From NCBI GenBank assembly GCA_012838865.1, contig DUOK01000175.1, positions 1-47,406 of the forward strand: a stretch of DNA of 47,406 nucleotides, in the 5' to 3' direction. Shown here in pieces: positions 7,961 through 19,413 of the stretch. This stretch comes from Bacteroidales bacterium (GTDB lineage Bacteria > Bacteroidota > Bacteroidia > Bacteroidales > Marinilabiliaceae). The notes under the pieces are model-generated. The model saw nothing but the letters and a program-made list of their open reading frames with translations. It searched no databases and was not told where the DNA came from. Every line of letters starts with the position of its first letter. The first letter of the stretch is position 1. The position numbers and the translations under genes are program-made.

Positions 7961-8103
7961 AAAATTTAAAGGTTTGGTTCAACACTTAGATTTAGAAAAA
8001 ACAGGTTTGGTTCCTGTAAAAATAAGGGAAGCGGGTGGGAATTACCGGAAAAAAAACAACAGTTGTTGGAATTTTTATAATTTTAACAGCCAAGAACCCG
8101 AAC

Positions 8104-11100
8104 ATGTACCACTACAGAACCTTTATTGCCCTTATACTAATCGGACTCTTTGTGCCTGTGAGCGCTTGGGCGCAGACGCACCTTTTTCATCCGGTAGAAC
8201 AGCCTCTGTCGAACAGTTATGTACGCTGTATATATAAAGACAGTAAGGGTTACCTCTGGGCAGGCACCTTTAACGGACTCAATCGCTACGATGGAGCCGG
8301 CATACAGACCTATCATCACGAAGCCGGCAAAACCAACACCCTCAGTCACAACATGGTCAATGCCTTGCTCGAGGACCATCAGCAAACCCTGTGGGTAGGG
8401 ACTTCCGAAGGACTGAATTACTACGACCGGGAAAAGGATGCCTTCCACTACATCATACATCGGCCCGACCTGGAAAACCGACACAACAACAGCTGCATTA
8501 CCGCCCTTTGTCAACCCGACACCACGACCCTTTGGATGGGAACCCGCGGCGGCGGGGTGAACATTTACCGCTACGCCGAAAAACGCTTTGACTTCCTCTT
8601 CCTAACGGCCTCCAAGTTGCTGGACGAAGCCAGCAACCACATCACCTGTCTGCAACAACACCACAACACCATATGGGCAGGAACAGCGGGGGGACTGTTC
8701 CGGATCAACCGGGAGACCCTGGTGGTGAGTCCTGTTCAACACCCCCTACTCGCCCGGACCAATATCAACGCCCTGGCCCTCCGGGGAGACAGTCTGTGGG
8801 TCGCCACTCCCGAAGCACTCTATCTGGCCGTTCTTAGTGAAAACACCCCCGCAGTCTTTGCTCCGGTAAAGCAAGTGCCGCAACAAAACATCAGCGTATT
8901 GCATCCCCATCAAAATGGAGCAGAATTGTGGTTGGGCTATGAAAATGGGGGACTGGGCTGTTACCGCCCCGCAGACCAAACCTTCAGCCACTACCACCAC
9001 CAGCCGGGCCTACGCAACGGTCTGCCCGACAACACCATTTGGAGTCTGCACAGCGACGAGGCCGGACGCCTGTGGGTGGGGACCTACAAGCAGGGTTTGC
9101 ACCTGCACGATCCTTATTACGACAAGTTCCTGAATTTTGAACACAATCCCTACGACCCCCTCTCGCTGAGTCACAATAACGTGCGAGCTTTTGCCGAAGA
9201 TCCGGAAGGTCGCCTCTACGTAGCGACCGACGGAGGCGGTCTCTCCCTCTTTGTACCCCATGCGCAGGAGGCATACAGCGGGCAAGCCCTGCCCGACCAC
9301 CTCCAAAATCTGCCCACACAAGCCCTAACCACCCTATTGTACAGCAAGCAGCACCAACTTTGGGCAGGCACCTGGGGAAGTGGCCTTGTACAAATCGATC
9401 TCGACAAAAAGACAAGAAAAATCCATCCTCTTTCCCCAACGAACTCAGCAGCGAACAGACTCTTCAGTCTCTATGAAGACAGGGCGGAAAACATCTGGGC
9501 GGGAACGGCCGGTGAGGGCTTGTACGTAAAAAAGAAGAACAGCCCCCATTTTCAAAAAGCCGGGAAAAGTTTCGAGGGACTCGAACTGCCCGAAGACGCC
9601 TTCATCACCTTCATCTTTGAGGACCAGGGCAAGGACTTGTGGATAGGCTCCCTCTATGGACTGTTTCGCTTCCACCGGCAAAACGGAAGCATCATCCAAA
9701 AATCGGTCTATTACAAAGAACTCTCCGGCAAAGGACTGGAAAGCAACTCTTTTCAGTGTGTACACCAGGATGCCCGGGGACGCATCTGGCTGGGAACCTT
9801 CGACCGGGGCGTGGCCCGCTACCATCCCGAAACCGATCGCTTCACCCACATCCATACCGAGCATGGTCTCGCCGGCAATATGATTCAGGCTATCTTGTCG
9901 GACCAGGACGGGCAGCTCTGGATAAGCAGTGAGCAGGGACTCAGCTGCTGGGATCCCGAAAGGTCGACTTGCATCAACTACAGCGAAGCCGATGGCCTTT
10001 TAACCAAAAACTTTCAAGGCAACGCCGCACTGAGCTTAAATAAGGGCTCACTTCTTTTCGGAACCACGGAGGGTTTTCACCTGATTGATCCAAAACGTCT
10101 GCCCAAAAACCCCCACAGCGGAGCTCCCCAAATCACCGCCCTCCACCTCCTTACCCGCAGCGCCGAAGCAGACAGCAGCTCAAGCTGGTCACCCCTTCAT
10201 AACAAGCAGACCCTTAAGCTGTCTCACCAACAAAACAGTTTCACCCTGACCTTTACCGCACTCAACTACACCCGTCCCGAAAACAATCGCTACCGCTATA
10301 AAATGGATGGCTGGGACCCGCAATGGAACGAAAGCAAAAACCCGGAAGTGAACTACCACAACCTCTCCCCCGGCCGCTATACCTTTCTGCTGCAAGCAGC
10401 CAACAACGACGGCATCTGGAGCGAAAACACCGCCCAGGTAAACCTGAGCATTCAACCGCCCCTTTGGCGCAGCTGGGCCCTTCTGCCCCTCTACCTCCTG
10501 CTGGCCGGATCCATTGTTTATCTCTTGATTGTACTCCGCTTACGCCGCCTGCAACTTCTCCACAATTATCAAAACAATAAGGCCCATTTACAAGTCTACG
10601 AAAAATGGTCCCATGAGCTGCGCACCGCTTTAAGCCTCATTGCGGCACCCTCCGAAAAATTACTGGACCAGCCCGCCCTTTCGCCTGAAATCCGGGCCGA
10701 ATTGCAGCGCCTGCGCAAAAACACCCTACAGCTCAGCAACTTGTCGCAAAAACTCTTGCTGCAGAAAGCCGACATCTCCCAAAACCCTGCGCCCGAAGCA
10801 AGCCCTCCCAGGCCAGACACCCTCCAGGCTCAGGACGAGCACCCCATAGAAAACGAAGCGCGCCACGAGATTTTGTTGATCGAAGACAACGAAGAATTAC
10901 TTGATTTTCTGGACCGTGAACTCCGCCGCCAATACACCATTTACAAAGCAGTAAATGGCGAAGAAGGCTTGCAAATGGCCCTGGAGAAATTGCCCGACCT
11001 GGTCGTCAGCGATGTGATGATGCCCGGCATGTCGGGGACCACCCTTTGCGCTCAGTTGAAAAAGGACCTGAGCACCTGTCACATCCCCATTTTGTTGCTC

Positions 11101-11625
11101 ACCGCCAAAGCCAGCGACCAGGACCAGGCAGAAGGCTTGCTCACAGGCGCCGACGCCTACATCACCAAGCCCTTTAGTATGAAAGTATTGCTGGCGCAAA
11201 TACAGCAACTTATTCAAAACCGTCAGCAACTCTACCACACCTTCCGCCAAAGCGGCTATTTGCTTCCCAGTCGCAACAAAAGCCAAAAAAGCGACGAAAA
11301 CTTCCTAAGCCAAATCGTTGCGCTCATTCGGGGGGACCTGTCCAACACCAACCTCAATGTAGAAGCCCTGGCCGAAAAGACCGAACTCTCGCGCACCCAG
11401 CTGTACAAAAAAATTAAAGCCCTAACAGGCTTGTCCGCAGTAGAATTTATCCGGGAAGTCCGACTGAAAGAAGCCGTGCTGCTCATGGAAGAAGGCGATC
11501 TCAGTCTCACAGAAGTCGCCTACCAAAGCGGTTTCAACTCTCCATCCTACTTCTCCAGAAGTTTTAAAGAGTATTATGGCTTCAGCCCCTCAGAACTGAC
11601 GCATAAAAAGATGCGAAAAGAGTAG
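8104..11625 (+). CDS. Hybrid two-component system (HTCS) sensor/regulator lacking the HATPase_c domain
   Basis: With the start at ATG 8104 (MYHYRTFIALILIGLFVPVSAWA, a signal or anchor segment) the protein has 1173 residues. The track start is a GTG 69 bases upstream without support. Order of parts: periplasmic Reg_prop beta-propeller, about 25-690 (repeats such as SKGYLWAGTFNGLNRYDG); Y_Y_Y domain, about 707-775; transmembrane helix, about 790-812; a DHp-like segment with H837 (KWSHELRTALSLI); receiver domain, about 920-1035, with phospho-acceptor D970 (VVSDVMMPGMSG) and Lys in YITKPF; AraC-type DNA-binding domain, about 1069-1173. Only about 85 residues separate H837 from the receiver, and the N, G1 and G2 ATP-binding boxes of a histidine kinase are absent. 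The usual Pro of the H-box is Ala. The frame is open throughout, so this is a clean domain loss, not a frameshift. It probably regulates the facing CAZyme operon. Confidence 0.93.
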   Translation: MYHYRTFIALILIGLFVPVSAWAQTHLFHPVEQPLSNSYVRCIYKDSKGYLWAGTFNGLNRYDGAGIQTYHHEAGKTNTLSHNMVNALLEDHQQTLWVGTSEGLNYYDREKDAFHYIIHRPDLENRHNNSCITALCQPDTTTLWMGTRGGGVNIYRYAEKRFDFLFLTASKLLDEASNHITCLQQHHNTIWAGTAGGLFRINRETLVVSPVQHPLLARTNINALALRGDSLWVATPEALYLAVLSENTPAVFAPVKQVPQQNISVLHPHQNGAELWLGYENGGLGCYRPADQTFSHYHHQPGLRNGLPDNTIWSLHSDEAGRLWVGTYKQGLHLHDPYYDKFLNFEHNPYDPLSLSHNNVRAFAEDPEGRLYVATDGGGLSLFVPHAQEAYSGQALPDHLQNLPTQALTTLLYSKQHQLWAGTWGSGLVQIDLDKKTRKIHPLSPTNSAANRLFSLYEDRAENIWAGTAGEGLYVKKKNSPHFQKAGKSFEGLELPEDAFITFIFEDQGKDLWIGSLYGLFRFHRQNGSIIQKSVYYKELSGKGLESNSFQCVHQDARGRIWLGTFDRGVARYHPETDRFTHIHTEHGLAGNMIQAILSDQDGQLWISSEQGLSCWDPERSTCINYSEADGLLTKNFQGNAALSLNKGSLLFGTTEGFHLIDPKRLPKNPHSGAPQITALHLLTRSAEADSSSSWSPLHNKQTLKLSHQQNSFTLTFTALNYTRPENNRYRYKMDGWDPQWNESKNPEVNYHNLSPGRYTFLLQAANNDGIWSENTAQVNLSIQPPLWRSWALLPLYLLLAGSIVYLLIVLRLRRLQLLHNYQNNKAHLQVYEKWSHELRTALSLIAAPSEKLLDQPALSPEIRAELQRLRKNTLQLSNLSQKLLLQKADISQNPAPEASPPRPDTLQAQDEHPIENEARHEILLIEDNEELLDFLDRELRRQYTIYKAVNGEEGLQMALEKLPDLVVSDVMMPGMSGTTLCAQLKKDLSTCHIPILLLTAKASDQDQAEGLLTGADAYITKPFSMKVLLAQIQQLIQNRQQLYHTFRQSGYLLPSRNKSQKSDENFLSQIVALIRGDLSNTNLNVEALAEKTELSRTQLYKKIKALTGLSAVEFIREVRLKEAVLLMEEGDLSLTEVAYQSGFNSPSYFSRSFKEYYGFSPSELTHKKMRKE

Positions 11626-11839: not shown

Positions 11840-13381
11840 CTATTTTTCCACAAGGTTCTTCACCTGAGCAAAGAGAAAAGCCTCTCCCTCCTGGGGAAAA
11901 ACCCGAACATTCTTCATCTGCAGACCATCCACCTCCATAAACTCGGCGCCATAGCGGGCAGAAATCGTCACATTCTCCAAATTGATGTTTGAGATGGGCA
12001 TCTCGGGCAAACCATGAAAATACATCGCCCTGCGCGCATTGACCGAAGTCACATTTTTAAAGGAGAGGTTCCTGAACATCGGCGTTTCCTCAGTAACAGG
12101 CAACAAATCTCTTTCAGCAACTGCACCATCTTCCCCTGCAGCCAGGGCTTCACTGGCCGACTTTCCACCATAGTAAAGATTAAAGCGAAAAGAGTCGGTG
12201 GAAATATCGTGCATACTTACATTCTCCACAAAGATGTTTTCGACAACGCCACCTCGTCCTCGGCGACTCTTGAAGCGTAAACCCACATCGGTGCCCAAAA
12301 AAGAACAAGAGCGTACCAAAATATTACGTACCCCGCCAGACATTTCACTGCCCACCACAAAGCCTCCGTGCCCGCGATAAACCACACAATTCTCCACAAT
12401 TACATTTTCTGTGACACGTGCCCTGCGCCGCCCATCCTCGTCCTTTCCTGATTTGATGCAAATGCCGTCGTCGCCCACATCAAAGGAGCTGTTTACCACC
12501 AGGGCGTTGCGACAAGATTCCAAATCCAAACCGTCGCCGTTCTGTGCGTAAGAGGGATTGCGTACCTGAATGCCGTCAATAATAACATTCTCACACATCA
12601 AGGGATGCAAATTCCACGAAGGCGAATTACTAAAAATCACCCCCTGCAAAAAAACATTCTTACATGCTATAAAACTGACCATGACCGGCCGTAAAAAATC
12701 TTTTACCGCCAGCCATTCTTCCTCAGTAGTCAGATGCTGCGGCACATTCATATTGCTGATGGTATCGCCGTGAAGCGCCCCGGCGGAAGGAAACCAATAG
12801 TTGTCGCGCTTAAAAACTCCTCCACGGGACACAAAGCTGCGCCACTGACTTTCGGTCACCTTATCCCGCTTAACCGGTCGCCACTCGTCCCCTGCCCCAT
12901 CAATGGCGCCATGACCCACAATGGCAATATTCTCCAACTGTCTTCCAGAAATGGGCGACTGACAGCGCCGGGTGTCGAGTCCCTCAAAAACAGTTTCCAC
13001 CAGAGGGTACAGGGACTTGTCGCGACTGAATAGAATCACTGCACCCTTTTCGAGGTACAAGCGGATATTGCTCCGAAACACAATGGGTCCGGTATGCCAC
13101 ACGCCGGCAGGCACATAAAGCGTTCCGCCGCCCTGCCCGGCCAACTCTTGCATAGCGCGTTCAAAAGCCTGGGTATTTAAAAACTGTCCATCCCCCTTTC
13201 CACCTGCATCTCTCAAATCCACCTGCCGATCGGGAAAAGTCGGCGGCACCAAAACCTCCATCTCAAAAGGCAAATCCTCAAAATAAACCGCATAAGGCGA
13301 ACGCTCCTCCCCGCCACAAGCAACCAACAACAGCGACAGCGTCGCACCAACAAAAATCATCCTAAGGCTCATATTCCCCAT
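11840..13381 (-). CDS. GH28 polygalacturonase-like glycoside hydrolase, lipoprotein
   Basis: A 513-residue right-handed beta-helix enzyme of family GH28, which hydrolyses galacturonic acid linkages in pectin. The lipobox LLVAC with C22 indicates a lipoprotein. The start may be Met4 at 13372. The catalytic pattern is present: NGDGLDL with D283, GDDG with D304/D305, GHGG with H338, and RFKSRRGRGG matching the RIK site. The long loops and the SNSPSWNLHPLMCENVIIDG block are typical of the bacterial exo-acting or oligosaccharide-active branch, though the exact substrate is inferred. It is the last gene of a three-gene minus-strand operon and ends facing the HTCS gene across a shared terminator. 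Confidence 0.93.
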   Translation of the reverse strand: MGNMSLRMIFVGATLSLLLVACGGEERSPYAVYFEDLPFEMEVLVPPTFPDRQVDLRDAGGKGDGQFLNTQAFERAMQELAGQGGGTLYVPAGVWHTGPIVFRSNIRLYLEKGAVILFSRDKSLYPLVETVFEGLDTRRCQSPISGRQLENIAIVGHGAIDGAGDEWRPVKRDKVTESQWRSFVSRGGVFKRDNYWFPSAGALHGDTISNMNVPQHLTTEEEWLAVKDFLRPVMVSFIACKNVFLQGVIFSNSPSWNLHPLMCENVIIDGIQVRNPSYAQNGDGLDLESCRNALVVNSSFDVGDDGICIKSGKDEDGRRRARVTENVIVENCVVYRGHGGFVVGSEMSGGVRNILVRSCSFLGTDVGLRFKSRRGRGGVVENIFVENVSMHDISTDSFRFNLYYGGKSASEALAAGEDGAVAERDLLPVTEETPMFRNLSFKNVTSVNARRAMYFHGLPEMPISNINLENVTISARYGAEFMEVDGLQMKNVRVFPQEGEAFLFAQVKNLVEK

Positions 13382-13456
13382 TTTAGCAATTAATTATTTC
13401 CCCAACTCCAGACAGCCCATAATAAATGGACCGTTGGCCTCGGCAACCACCAAAAC

Positions 13457-16400
13457 CTATTGCACCAGAGTAAGTCCAAGCAATCCAATAAGCACTTCAT
13501 TAGCCACGGCCTCCAGTTCCAGCGCCTCCAGTTCACGTGAGGCGTCAAGAGGGAGATCCAGGATAAGGCCCGCCCCGCCATCAATGCTGCGACCATAAAC
13601 CTCATCCGGGTCAATAGCCATCAGAGCCTCCATATTACGTGACACCTCCCCGGTTTTTAAAGCAACCCGGTAAGGGCGGGGGAAGGGACTGTAAAAGGCA
13701 TGCTCGTCCAGGAAAAGGTCCTGCTCAATGGGCAACCAGTTGTTGGGATTGATCAATTCCAGCACTTCCTCCCCGCCATCCTTGTACTTCACGCGTATGC
13801 GACCGTTTACCAAATGGCTCTGCATATGATTGGTAGAGCCCGCCATCAGCAAATAAACATGCTGTGCATGACCTTCCAAAGGGATTTGTGCGCGCTCAGG
13901 ATAATTGTCCCATTGCGAAACAAACAACACATTGGGTGCCACACTATCCCCCGCTACAGAAAAGGCCAGCCCCATAGGCGTTTCAAAAACACCCTCTTTT
14001 ACAGCAGAACGAAGACCGCTGTCGTCAATATCTGCGCTCAGTTTTGGGTGACACCATTCCCCAATACCCTGAACAGGAATTTGCAGGGTGGTAAATGGCG
14101 ACCGGGGGGAAAGGTATTGCTCATCAAAAATGGAGGACAGCGAGGCATTCACCCCATCCTTGATAGACACCAGTCGCTGTTCACGTTGGGGAGCCTCCAA
14201 ATTCCATAAAGACAAATCCTCTTGAAACAGTGCTTCATCGCCGACACGCAACTCGATGCGGTTACTGCCCAAAAAAACTTTTTCTTTGGGCACTTGCAGA
14301 GACTGCGACCAGCTGTCGGGAGCCAGTTCCAATCTGGTCGACCAGGCATAAGGACCGGGATTCACGACAACTTCCATGTCGACTGCGCTGCGCCCCTGAT
14401 TCTTTATGCGAAAACTCAGCTGTTCGGCTTCCACCTCTGTTTCCAGGGCAAAGGGGTGCATCAACTCCAGGTGCAGGGGTTGCCACCACAGCGCACTGCC
14501 CTCGCGCAATTGAACAAACAGGGTTTTTGCACCAACCGGCCCCTGCGTCCGGCCTGTCAACACCCCATCCTCGAAACGCACATGGCTCAGCGCACCTTGC
14601 GGGTCCTTCACAGCCTTAATTTCTGCCGCTAAGTCGACCTGCAGTTCCTCACCCGAAACCATCGCCAACTCTTTTACATCCAACTGATTTCCCCACAACT
14701 TGTCCCACGCCACAACAAGCTCAAGCTCCTCTTCCATAGGCAGCTCCAGAACAAGATAGGCCTGTCCAAGCCCTTCCTCCATCTGCCAGGAGTGGGAGCG
14801 CCCATTTACCCTGACGGAACGTACCCCGGGACCCAGCGCCCTTAATTTTAACTCCAGGGTGTCGGCTGCATCCATACGACAATGAAAAGTATAAAGACTC
14901 CGAAGCCCCTCCTGACGGTAACTGAAATCCAGATACGACGCGGAAAAAGACGCGTGTTCCCAAGCTGCAGGAAAGCCGGGACGGATGACCAGTCGACGGT
15001 TCAACAAGTCCGGTTGGATGCCATAAAGCCCCTCAACCAGGGCCCTGGAATACATCCCAACAGGATCACCAAAATCGCGGTAACACTCCCCTCTGGCCGC
15101 ATCGTAAAAACTGATTTGACCGATGTTGCCGGGACTGCTGCCCAGGTACATACCATCCAGCAAAATACTCTTGAACAACTTTGCAGCCACATCGCTTCGC
15201 CCGCTTTGCCAATAAGCCAGCGCAGTATGTGCCACCTCGGCAAAAGCTACATTGTTGACCGACCAGGAATAGGGAAACCAGTTGGTGGTAGAAAGCGTGT
15301 AATAACCCTCATCAGGCAAACCCTTGGCCCTTATCGGAATATGTGGAATCTGTGTATCGATGTAACGCGTAGCCTGATAAGCCTGAAAAGGCGTATGGAC
15401 CTCCGAGTCTATGGCATGATAAATGGTCCACAAGCCCGGCTTATCGTGCACCAGGCCCAAGCCCATATAGTCCTGAAACTCGGCCCAATGGCCCTCTCCC
15501 TCCAACCACAGCCGCTGGTTAAGCGCTTCCAGAATACGTTCCGCCTCCTTTTGATAGGGGCCGGGATCTTCTCCAATTTTTTGAGCCACCAGGGCCACCA
15601 AACGATTGGCCCTATAGTTATAGGCCGAGGTGTAGGTCACCGCTCCACTGTTGTAATACAAAGCATCACTCGCCCAAATGGCCGCACAGGCATCGTAAAG
15701 ACCATCGTTGTCGGGATCATAATTGCGCTTCTCCCATTCGAGATGCGCCTTTAATACCGGCCATACTTCCCGTGCATAAGACAAATCTCCCGTCCAGTTT
15801 AAATGCCACAAAAGCGCATCGATGTACACCAGATTCATATTGTAATGGTGCATTTGGTTGGGATTTTCGGGATTGCGTGCAATGTAGCCATTGGAGTACA
15901 TTTGTGTACCCCATTGTTTGAGTGGACGCGCCAAATTCAGGGCAGAATCGGGGGTGGCATGCGGCAAAACCGGCTCAAGCGCTGTGACCTGCGAAGCGGC
16001 ATAACGACTGAAATGTCGTCGGTTTCGCTCACTCCATCCAATAAAATCACCCGTGTAAGCGGCCCGCCAGCCATTAAGCGGCATACGCCACCCAATGGCC
16101 CCGTGCAACCACACATCTTCCCAAAGCCCATCAGCAGCTGCAGTCAAGGCCCCACCCAGGGTGTTAAAATAAGGATCGGGGGTTTCCACCTTTAAAGCAC
16201 TGCCCAGCAGCTTACTCCGCTCCAAAGCCTGGGCAAAGACCTCATCCAAATCCTTGTCCGCCAAAGCACTTGCCCCTTCCACATTCTGCAAGGCAAAAAA
16301 GTGCGTAAAGTCGCCCGACACCTGCCACTGTGCACCTAAAACAGGCTTCGCCTCCTCGACCTGAGAAGCCCAAAATTCAGCAGGACTGCCTAAGTCATAA

Positions 16401-17083
16401 GGCGAAAGCAAGCGTAGGGTGGCGGGGGGACTAAAACGGCCTTCGACCCGGGTCGGATTGCGGGTCTCCTGACCGTAATCCAAAATAAAACCGCCTTTCG
16501 TCAGACTGTAATCGTTGTTGCGACAGGCCTCAGCATCCAAATCAAAAGCATTGACCTCATCCACGCCCAAATCGGCATTTCGGTAAAAACGCTTACTGTC
16601 TGCGCCCCCATACATCGTCAACAAACGAGACCCTGCAGGCAAATCCGCTCCGCTCAATTTAACCACAACACCACGGCCTTCAGCCATGGCCAGAACCTCC
16701 AGCTCCAAACGTCCACCCGCTAGAAGTGGATCCTCCACCCGATAGGTCCTGATACCTGCCCGCGATTCCGCACGCACCCAGGAGGCATCTGCCAGCCAAA
16801 GGCTGCCCCTGGAGGTTTCAATCCCCCATTGCAAATGGCCACCCCGATAAGGCATATACAAACCCAGCACAGGCACATCACTGGTCTCCACCCGAAAGGA
16901 AGACCCCGAGGCATACAAAGCCTTATTGTACCTCAACTTTCCGTTTTCAATAACAAAGGATTCCCCCTCAGGCCGGTAGCGCAGTTCACGCTCTGTTCCC
17001 TGCCAAACACCATAAGCACTTTGTGCAAACAGCTCTGTTCCCAGACCAAAAAAAAATCCGACAAAAACAAGTATTTTCAACAT
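13457..17083 (-). CDS. Secreted six-hairpin (DUF4450-like) glycosidase-related protein
   Basis: A 1208-residue protein with a Sec signal peptide (MLKILVFVGFFFGLGTELFA, cleavage before QSAYG). The middle (about 300-720) looks like an (alpha/alpha)6 six-hairpin domain with Trp-rich segments (ENPNQMHHYNMNLVYIDALL, DPDNDGLYDACAAIWASD, TTNWFPYSWSVNNVA). Beta-sandwich regions flank it. My recall places it in the Bacteroidota DUF4450 group, often found with GH28 and other pectin enzymes. The reaction is not known to me. It lies 21 bases after the upstream lipoprotein gene. The reading frame continues for 20 sense codons past the TAG stop (13397-13456) before a TAA. The normal-looking family end (ANEVLIGLLGLTLVQ) suggests that TAG is the true stop. 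Confidence 0.75.
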   Translation of the reverse strand: MLKILVFVGFFFGLGTELFAQSAYGVWQGTERELRYRPEGESFVIENGKLRYNKALYASGSSFRVETSDVPVLGLYMPYRGGHLQWGIETSRGSLWLADASWVRAESRAGIRTYRVEDPLLAGGRLELEVLAMAEGRGVVVKLSGADLPAGSRLLTMYGGADSKRFYRNADLGVDEVNAFDLDAEACRNNDYSLTKGGFILDYGQETRNPTRVEGRFSPPATLRLLSPYDLGSPAEFWASQVEEAKPVLGAQWQVSGDFTHFFALQNVEGASALADKDLDEVFAQALERSKLLGSALKVETPDPYFNTLGGALTAAADGLWEDVWLHGAIGWRMPLNGWRAAYTGDFIGWSERNRRHFSRYAASQVTALEPVLPHATPDSALNLARPLKQWGTQMYSNGYIARNPENPNQMHHYNMNLVYIDALLWHLNWTGDLSYAREVWPVLKAHLEWEKRNYDPDNDGLYDACAAIWASDALYYNSGAVTYTSAYNYRANRLVALVAQKIGEDPGPYQKEAERILEALNQRLWLEGEGHWAEFQDYMGLGLVHDKPGLWTIYHAIDSEVHTPFQAYQATRYIDTQIPHIPIRAKGLPDEGYYTLSTTNWFPYSWSVNNVAFAEVAHTALAYWQSGRSDVAAKLFKSILLDGMYLGSSPGNIGQISFYDAARGECYRDFGDPVGMYSRALVEGLYGIQPDLLNRRLVIRPGFPAAWEHASFSASYLDFSYRQEGLRSLYTFHCRMDAADTLELKLRALGPGVRSVRVNGRSHSWQMEEGLGQAYLVLELPMEEELELVVAWDKLWGNQLDVKELAMVSGEELQVDLAAEIKAVKDPQGALSHVRFEDGVLTGRTQGPVGAKTLFVQLREGSALWWQPLHLELMHPFALETEVEAEQLSFRIKNQGRSAVDMEVVVNPGPYAWSTRLELAPDSWSQSLQVPKEKVFLGSNRIELRVGDEALFQEDLSLWNLEAPQREQRLVSIKDGVNASLSSIFDEQYLSPRSPFTTLQIPVQGIGEWCHPKLSADIDDSGLRSAVKEGVFETPMGLAFSVAGDSVAPNVLFVSQWDNYPERAQIPLEGHAQHVYLLMAGSTNHMQSHLVNGRIRVKYKDGGEEVLELINPNNWLPIEQDLFLDEHAFYSPFPRPYRVALKTGEVSRNMEALMAIDPDEVYGRSIDGGAGLILDLPLDASRELEALELEAVANEVLIGLLGLTLVQ

Positions 17084-17104: not shown

Positions 17105-19216
17105 CTAAGGCATTACCATTAAATCTTCCCAAACCACCTTCCAACTCCCGTCATCCGGAAAGCCAGGTGTGGGCAGCTCGTTACCGTCCCAGCCCGCACA
17201 CATCATAGCCACAGCAGTGAGCAAACCCCCATTGCCCGGCAAATAAACCCTTAAGCGCGCATCCTGATAATTGTGCCCGTTAATAAGATAAGTATTGGTA
17301 CGCTTATCCATAAGCAGGGCACCCACCGCCTTCTCACGATCACCCAGGCGGGCCGCATTCATCGCCGTCATAGGATAATCCCACCCCCAGGTCTTACCCC
17401 AATTCCAGTTGTCCCATATCCAGTCGAGGGTGTTCTGCATATAATCGGTACGAATCAAATTATTTTGAGGCAACATACCCATTGCACCGAGCACAGCAGG
17501 GTGGTCTGAAGTAAAACGAATGTCCTTGTAGGTATCCACAGCATCCTCCGAAGCCAGATACAAGCCATCCAACTCCGCCAAAGGCGGCAACTTATCAATA
17601 ATCTCATCCCATTGCACACGACGCGACTTTCCAGCGCGCTCGCGCCATTTCTGAGCCACCGAGAGCCCGTAGTGCCAGTACGACAATTCAAAGGGGGGAT
17701 TGATGGTCTCCACCGCACGCAAAGTTTCCTGGGCAGGAATCACCCCTTGCAAAATATAGCGCCCCTCCATCATATCATAATCTGCAAAAGAAGCCATAAA
17801 TGCCGCCGTTTCCTCCACCAAAAAGCCATACTTTTCAAGCACTTCGGGGGTAGGGGAACTGCGGTAAAGCAGTTCGGCCATATAAATAAAATGCGGCTGC
17901 TGCCAAATCAGGAAGGAGCCCACTCCCGATGGGGCTTCCGTAGCAGAAGGATCCGTCATTTTCATCCATCGACAACCCTTAAAGCCCTGCCGCTCGGCAA
18001 TTTCTTTGGCCATCGGATAGGCCGCTGCGTACCAGTCCATACTCCGCTCCAGCAACTCAGGTCGCCCCCATAGCGCAAAATGCACACCATGCCACCAGTG
18101 CATCTCCAGATGAAACTTACCGTACCAACTGTTGTAGGTCAAACCGGTTTCCTGCGGCGGATACATGCCGGCCGACTGTATGGCCATCAAATACTGCGAC
18201 AACACCACCCGGCGTTCCAGCTCTTTAGCGCCCGCTGCCGTGCTTCCGGAAAAATCAACCGCGCCACCATTCTTCCAAAACTGCTGCCAGTAATCCGAAG
18301 CGTCCGACAAAACCATTTCCACCTCCAGATCCTCCTTAACCGGCTCCTCCACAAATGCACAACTAAAAGAGAAATCTTTCTGTGCAGGCTCCAAAACAAA
18401 ATAATGGGCCTCCTTTTCGCGCAGGGAGGCCTTTCCCTCCCAACTGATCCGCACATAATACACCGCTTCGTCCAGCGTCCGCTTCAACAGCGCACTTTGC
18501 GCATCCTGCTCCACCAGGGTCGTCAGATGCTTCTCAGGAACACTCCAATCAGTAGCATCATCGGCATGCTGCCCACTTGGATAAGGAAAACGAAAAGAAA
18601 TCCCCAGTTCTCCCCGCTCCAGCAAGGGCGAACTCAGCGCAGCCGCCAGCACATCCCGATTGGGATCCACTGCAGTTTTAACCGCCACCGAATCACCATT
18701 CAACACAAAGCGACTGCGAATGGTGCCGTTCCACAAATCCAATTCCTGATGCGGGTCCTGAATGTCCGAAGGCCGCAGGCCCTCAGCCTCAAAACCTACA
18801 TAACCCAAATGCAAGCGATGCGGATTCACCCGAAACCAATTGGCTGCATCCTTTGAGCGTCCGGGTTCACCAAACTGCACAGAATAAGGCTCCGGCTTCC
18901 CCCTGAAATCATAGTCCTTTAAGGTCTCCTCAAAACGAAAGTTCTCCGGATTCGGAAAGCTGTGCCAGCCCCATTGCGACTGCGTACCCAGCGGCATGCC
19001 TTTGGCATAAAAATCCGGAAAAGTCTGCAAACCCGTTGCATCTACGGTCACCGCAAAATTCCCATTGCCTACCGACAAGGCCGACAATTCTTCTACTTCA
19101 GTTACCAGGGGGCTGTTGCGCTTAACCAGTGCATAGCGGTCTATTTTTCCGACCTCCTCTTCCTTACATCCAAAGAATACACCAATCAACAAAACAATTA
19201 AAAACCAGTACTTCAT
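17105..19216 (-). CDS. Six-hairpin glycoside hydrolase-like lipoprotein (GH65/GH95-like fold)
   Basis: From the ATG at 19216 the protein is 703 residues, starting MKYWFLIVLLIGVFFGC, a lipoprotein signal with Cys at residue 17. The track start 120 bases upstream adds spacer-encoded sequence and is rejected. The N-terminal part (RYALVKRNSPLVTEVEELSA, LSVGNGNFAVTVDATGLQTF) and the helical C-terminal two-thirds (TYNSWYGKFHLEMHWWHGVHFAL, WGWDYPMTAMNAARLGD) resemble (alpha/alpha)6 glycosidases and phosphorylases of the GH65/GH95 type. I cannot assign a substrate. It is the first gene of the operon and diverges from the ilv leader across a 250-base spacer. Confidence 0.75.
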   Translation of the reverse strand: MKYWFLIVLLIGVFFGCKEEEVGKIDRYALVKRNSPLVTEVEELSALSVGNGNFAVTVDATGLQTFPDFYAKGMPLGTQSQWGWHSFPNPENFRFEETLKDYDFRGKPEPYSVQFGEPGRSKDAANWFRVNPHRLHLGYVGFEAEGLRPSDIQDPHQELDLWNGTIRSRFVLNGDSVAVKTAVDPNRDVLAAALSSPLLERGELGISFRFPYPSGQHADDATDWSVPEKHLTTLVEQDAQSALLKRTLDEAVYYVRISWEGKASLREKEAHYFVLEPAQKDFSFSCAFVEEPVKEDLEVEMVLSDASDYWQQFWKNGGAVDFSGSTAAGAKELERRVVLSQYLMAIQSAGMYPPQETGLTYNSWYGKFHLEMHWWHGVHFALWGRPELLERSMDWYAAAYPMAKEIAERQGFKGCRWMKMTDPSATEAPSGVGSFLIWQQPHFIYMAELLYRSSPTPEVLEKYGFLVEETAAFMASFADYDMMEGRYILQGVIPAQETLRAVETINPPFELSYWHYGLSVAQKWRERAGKSRRVQWDEIIDKLPPLAELDGLYLASEDAVDTYKDIRFTSDHPAVLGAMGMLPQNNLIRTDYMQNTLDWIWDNWNWGKTWGWDYPMTAMNAARLGDREKAVGALLMDKRTNTYLINGHNYQDARLRVYLPGNGGLLTAVAMMCAGWDGNELPTPGFPDDGSWKVVWEDLMVMP

Positions 19217-19413
19217 AGCTGAAAATTTTTCATTATAACACAAAAGCAATCTTCCTTCACTGCCCCCTTTCAACAAAATTAACAATTCTTGCACACAATC
19301 CCTCCAATAGGCAAAATTTGAATATTTATACGCCATATTGGAATTTTCGACAGCAAAACTGCGGATTTAATAAAAAAATGACAGCAAAGCGTATTTTTTT
19401 TTACGATTATGGC

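Follow-up and report, generated by a model that had tools for sequence, protein, structure and literature searches.

The window analysed here, a stretch of 47,406 nucleotides of Bacteroidales DNA, contains at positions 8104-11625 of the forward strand a gene for a 1173-amino-acid protein that is a hybrid two-component system (HTCS) with its HATPase_c (CA) domain removed in frame, at a locus held in common with Geofilum rhodophaeum. Among the glycan regulators of gut and environmental Bacteroidota, the HTCSs form a major class; the protein described here is a rare kinase-less derivative of this family, found in two Geofilum species. Searches of open-access papers turned up no description of an HTCS that lacks HATPase_c.

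The mechanically delimited open reading frame begins with a GTG at 8035, which adds 23 residues to the numbering used here. The ATG at 8104 is the likely start, and a signal-peptide-like sequence follows it (likely signal peptide at residues 1-23). Pfam analysis of the 1173-residue protein identified Reg_prop (7e-52), Y_Y_Y (9e-18), Response_reg (5e-21) and HTH_18 (8e-21). The periplasmic two-component-regulator propeller, made of Reg_prop repeats, occupies positions 8170-10200 and is followed by the Y_Y_Y domain (10264-10452), a single transmembrane helix (10474-10536), a DHp hairpin with both helices (10576-10782), a disordered Pro/Ala linker (10783-10863, pLDDT <50), the receiver domain (10870-11202, beginning at about residue 921) and the AraC-type DNA-binding domain (11368-11598). 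The AlphaFold2 model gave the same order, with one long helix that runs without interruption through the transmembrane segment, the stalk and the first DHp helix, then the second DHp helix, the linker, the receiver and the AraC domain. The pTM of the receiver-AraC model was 0.72, a moderate value that is too low to call a locked arrangement. A fold search with a model of 473 residues returned near its top only receiver-containing matches, without the HTCS fragment 12aw, and did not inform on the arrangement of the domains.

The DHp hairpin was recognised by alignment and by AlphaFold2; its HisKA match (6e-4) was weak, with 20.2 bits under the Pfam cut-off of 26.9. Its H-box, SHELRTA, retains His837 (codon 10612-10614) and has Ala in the place of Pro. 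In the receiver, the phospho-acceptor Asp970 is encoded at 11011-11013 and Lys1022, the Lys of the TKPF motif, at 11167-11169. These three residues lie where the original prediction had placed them, and the distance from His837 to the receiver, given there as about 85 residues, is 84. The H-box substitution that it pointed out was likewise confirmed, as SHELRTA was confined to the copies of this regulator among 111 ORFs and all the other recognised H-boxes had Pro.

The absence of HATPase_c, also claimed in the original prediction, was supported by several comparisons. The domain had no Pfam match in the 1173-residue protein at E<1, and a six-frame search gave 44 matches genome-wide and 0 on the contig of the regulator. 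It is present at each of the nine further receiver-AraC loci of HTCS type in the same genome (9/9). The gap between Y_Y_Y and receiver was then compared in the 111 ORFs having Y_Y_Y, an HTCS-type receiver and AraC, drawn from loci across Bacteroidota; 5 of these are copies of the regulator gene or its ortholog and about 106 are others. The gap measures 129 amino acids in the regulator and 84 in the ortholog. In the others it is never below 282 (median about 317), which places the regulator far outside the normal range. A simple pattern detected a G1 or G2 box in all other HTCS ORFs but one (L076), which has an N-box pattern match and a spacer of full length. In the alignment, the DHp helices of the regulator run to '...LLLQKADIS', which corresponds to '...LLDFQKADL' in complete HTCSs (L093, for example); the sequence then jumps to the pre-receiver linker, where other HTCSs have about 200 amino acids of HATPase_c. 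What remains is more than the DHp-like helix first described, as both DHp helices are kept and it is the CA domain that has been excised. A special meaning of the Pro/Ala linker was considered and rejected, since its counterpart in the alignment is the usual linker between CA and receiver in full HTCSs. According to established histidine-kinase biochemistry, autophosphorylation and intramolecular phosphotransfer are impossible without a CA domain. On this basis the regulator, whose ATP-binding domain is absent, cannot phosphorylate itself.

The genome assembly consists of 331 contigs, and an assembly or sequencing error could have removed the HATPase region. We consider this hardly credible, as the reading frame continues across the deletion, the contig contains no HATPase fragment and an independent RefSeq assembly, that of G. 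rhodophaeum HF401 (L011), encodes a syntenic ortholog of 1128 amino acids that has no CA domain either. The junction of this ortholog is at the same place as the deletion of the regulator, but it is different and shorter. A frameshift or artefact was rejected on the strength of this independent ortholog. The G. rhodophaeum gene was the one close ortholog to emerge when one genome from each species was scanned, so that the closest ortholog is kinase-less too. The two genes share their neighbours, with dapD on one side and a GH28/DUF4450 operon on the other, and their propellers are 96% identical. In G. rhodophaeum the rest of the DHp hairpin, from the H-box onward, is also deleted, yet the receiver retains every phospho-site residue despite the loss of the His box. 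Consequently, the claim that the phospho-relay residues are kept is correct for the copy in the window but does not extend to its ortholog, and His837 is dispensable, as the latter has no H-box.

In Geofilum rubicundum the same operon lies beside dapD with no regulator between them and no full HTCS at the locus, and the ortholog was absent from the remaining members of the genus. Among the matches listed from 71 genomes of the family, no further kinase-less HTCS was found beyond the ortholog. Neither was any found among the matches listed from 295 genomes of the order and 396 of the phylum, in searches with queries taken from the kinase-less form in which about 7 candidates were scored for each genome and only the best matches listed, so that independent cases may be missed.

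Comparison of the two genes revealed an unexpected mosaic. Over about 15 kb around the regulator gene the identity with G. rhodophaeum is 96-98%, and within it a diverged segment with sharp bounds (10384-11224, forward strand) comprises the end of Y_Y_Y, the transmembrane helix, the DHp/linker region and the receiver. Third codon positions differ from the ortholog in 64 of 215 cases (30%) inside this segment versus 52 of 893 (6%) elsewhere in the gene (Fisher P 4e-20, for a segment of approximately 10384-11224 against the remainder). Synonymous rates are 0.4-1.3 within the segment and 0.05-0.17 beyond it, and the linker region is fast-evolving. Selection at the protein level alone does not raise synonymous divergence, and for this reason the simplest reading would be that homologous recombination with a diverged relative gave one lineage its TM-to-receiver cassette. 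The CA domain is missing from the cassettes of both species. The most economical account is that CA was lost once, long ago, and the His box later in one allele, although two separate deletions are possible.

The convergent neighbour of the regulator, and its likely target, is a GH28 (polygalacturonase-type) gene (11840-13381, reverse strand). The same operon, all on this strand, includes a gene for a DUF4450/MGH1-like glycoside hydrolase (13457-17083) and, as its first gene, one for a 743-amino-acid protein (17105-19336) with no Pfam or NCBIfam match that is well conserved in three Geofilum genomes. From its adjacency we infer that the regulator controls the GH28/DUF4450 operon. The gene content of the operon, GH28 and DUF4450/MGH1-like, plus GH88 in the sister species, suggests pectin-derived oligosaccharides. 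When the operon promoters were compared, that of G. rhodophaeum was too similar and that of G. rubicundum not alignable, and no binding site is proposed. The GH88 gene (unsaturated glucuronyl hydrolase-type) lies between GH28 and DUF4450 in G. rhodophaeum (L011:10873-12042) and in G. rubicundum (L165:13688-14848), and is cleanly absent in the species of the window, at position 13382-13456. In G. rubicundum, the DUF4450 gene (L165:10025-13647) is split over two overlapping frames, by a frameshift or a sequencing error.

The output half of the regulator is intact. Of the receiver/AraC positions conserved in at least 80% of 135 other HTCS receiver-AraC segments, the regulator has 51/51 and the ortholog 49/51, in agreement with the original statement that Asp970 and the TKPF Lys are kept and the AraC domain is complete. 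The kept positions include the acidic pair, the phospho-Asp, the switch Thr, the Lys, the beta5 Asp/Tyr, the C-H-I-P motif (inhibitory CHIP, 11077-11088) and its two lock partners, Asp1064 (11293-11295), just upstream of the AraC domain, and Lys1103 (11410-11412), within it. These partners were assigned by analogy with BT4124, where D1344 and K1383 are 39 residues apart, together with the conservation of the columns, in which D occurs in 121/135 and K in 134/135 HTCSs. In Bacteroides thetaiotaomicron HTCSs, the S/CHIP-DK contact holds the unphosphorylated DNA-binding domain inactive (Gao, Wu and Stock, 2024; PMC11253607). Classification as a pseudo-receiver or atypical response regulator was rejected, as the key phosphorylation residues are all kept. 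Between regulator and ortholog, dN/dS is 0.23 for the propeller, 0.15 for the receiver (dS 0.44) and zero for the AraC domain, which has no amino-acid change; these values show purifying selection on both the sensor and the receiver. If the kinase was lost recently, the phospho-site may be conserved through inertia.

These data bear on whether the protein is a decaying or dominant-negative remnant, on its way to a pseudogene and possibly forming inactive heterodimers. The lack of a regulator at the G. rubicundum locus, the missing GH88 gene and the fast evolution of the linker region would fit such a fate. However, the frame is intact and open in two species, dN/dS is low in sensor and receiver, and the AraC domain has no amino-acid change and the conserved positions are complete, so that we regard decay as improbable.

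The reading that we put forward, and to which we would give an even chance, is that of a working membrane-tethered regulator of the pectin-type GH28/DUF4450 operon, with a stalk-coupled sensor and a receiver gate that is opened in trans. Binding of the ligand to the periplasmic propeller/Y_Y_Y dimer would shift the geometry of the transmembrane stalk, and the altered stalk would position the two receiver-AraC units. The CHIP-DK lock between receiver and AraC would prevent DNA binding as long as the receiver is not activated. As the regulator is unable to form phospho-His by itself, phosphate would reach the receiver in trans, from another HTCS, a receiver-less propeller kinase or a small phosphodonor, and the protein would so integrate the periplasmic signal with a second, cytoplasmic one. 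Phosphorylation by another kinase is plausible because tethering has been argued to relax the HK-RR specificity in HTCSs, with promiscuous phosphotransfer (cited in PMC11253607). No kinase gene was found on the contig of the regulator in the six-frame HATPase_c search. In the same genome, candidate kinases are three propeller/Y_Y_Y proteins that end in HATPase without a receiver (contigs C66, C225 and C17) and the nine full HTCSs, none of them linked to the regulator gene.

A close rival of the receiver-gated reading, less probable but quite possible, is pure one-component coupling, in which the periplasmic dimer would drive AraC dimerisation mechanically through the stalk, in the manner of SusR or ToxR, and the receiver would be a spacer or dimerisation domain. 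It is consistent with the loss of the His box in G. rhodophaeum and with the presence in the same genome of two propeller-AraC chains that have neither kinase nor receiver (C170, with Y_Y_Y, and C308, with Y_Y_Y below the cut-off) and of a chain in which propeller and Y_Y_Y are joined to a LuxR-type domain (C125). In addition, transcription can be activated by forcing AraC DNA-binding domains to dimerise, as discussed in PMC11253607. Against it stand the intact phospho-site and CHIP-DK lock and the purifying selection on the receiver. Moreover, BT4236, for which independence from phosphorylation has been suggested, departs from the lock with CSIP-EK (PMC11253607), whereas the regulator keeps it. 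The original prediction had offered conformational coupling and phosphorylation by another kinase as alternatives; the intact lock and receiver site incline us to think that the receiver is still being activated.

A fuller version of the receiver-gated reading is tentative and, taken as a whole, rather doubtful. The kinase-deleted HTCS would have become a two-input (AND-type) membrane regulator, in which glycan sensing acts via the stalk on a receiver lock opened by a different kinase, the CA domain having been lost first and the His box later, and the TM-to-receiver cassette having been exchanged by recombination. If this were true, the output of one sensor would be conditional on another.

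The regulator resembles Bacteroidota HTCSs such as BT4124, BT4663 and BT3334 in carrying propeller, Y_Y_Y, transmembrane helix, DHp, receiver and AraC domain in one chain, in its S/CHIP-DK lock and in adjoining a carbohydrate-degradation operon. It differs from them in the missing HATPase_c and in the Pro-to-Ala change of the H-box, and the copy of the sister species in also lacking the H-box. B. thetaiotaomicron BT4236, an HTCS with Gln at the phospho-His site and the lock variant CSIP-EK (PMC11253607), is likewise a chain that is expected not to autophosphorylate; there the His is replaced and the lock altered, whereas the regulator has lost its CA domain and keeps the lock in full. With the membrane one-component regulators of SusR/ToxR type and with C170 and C308, the regulator shares a periplasmic sensor, a transmembrane helix, a DNA-binding domain and the lack of a kinase, but, unlike them, it keeps a canonical receiver (Response_reg 5e-21). 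It sits between the HTCSs, from which the missing HATPase_c sets it apart, and the SusR-like class, from which the receiver does. The receiver-AraC half is a sequence relative of the HTCS receiver-AraC fragment 12aw (PDB; E 6e-62), which also has CHIP and, being a fragment, is uninformative on the membrane part. The receiver-less kinases of C66, C225 and C17 have a sensor of the same family, with the kinase kept and the output absent, and are in this respect complementary to the regulator.

Phosphorylation and the tethering of two DNA-binding domains to a dimer may contribute to HTCS output in various proportions. The regulator and its ortholog form a natural deletion series, in which first CA and then CA plus the His box are lost while sensor, receiver, lock and DNA-binding domain are kept under selection. 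The pair is a natural test of the need for an own kinase, and allows asking whether the receiver gate needs phosphate and where this phosphate comes from.

Other propeller sensors of the same genome have further output domains. The two propeller-AraC chains named above, L152 (C170) and L158 (C308), end in AraC with neither kinase nor receiver, Y_Y_Y being clear in the first and weak in the second, and L155 (C125), with a clear Y_Y_Y and also without kinase and receiver, has a LuxR end. Finally, in L151 (C284) and L157 (C245) the propeller/Y_Y_Y sensor is fused to a SpoIIE-type phosphatase domain.
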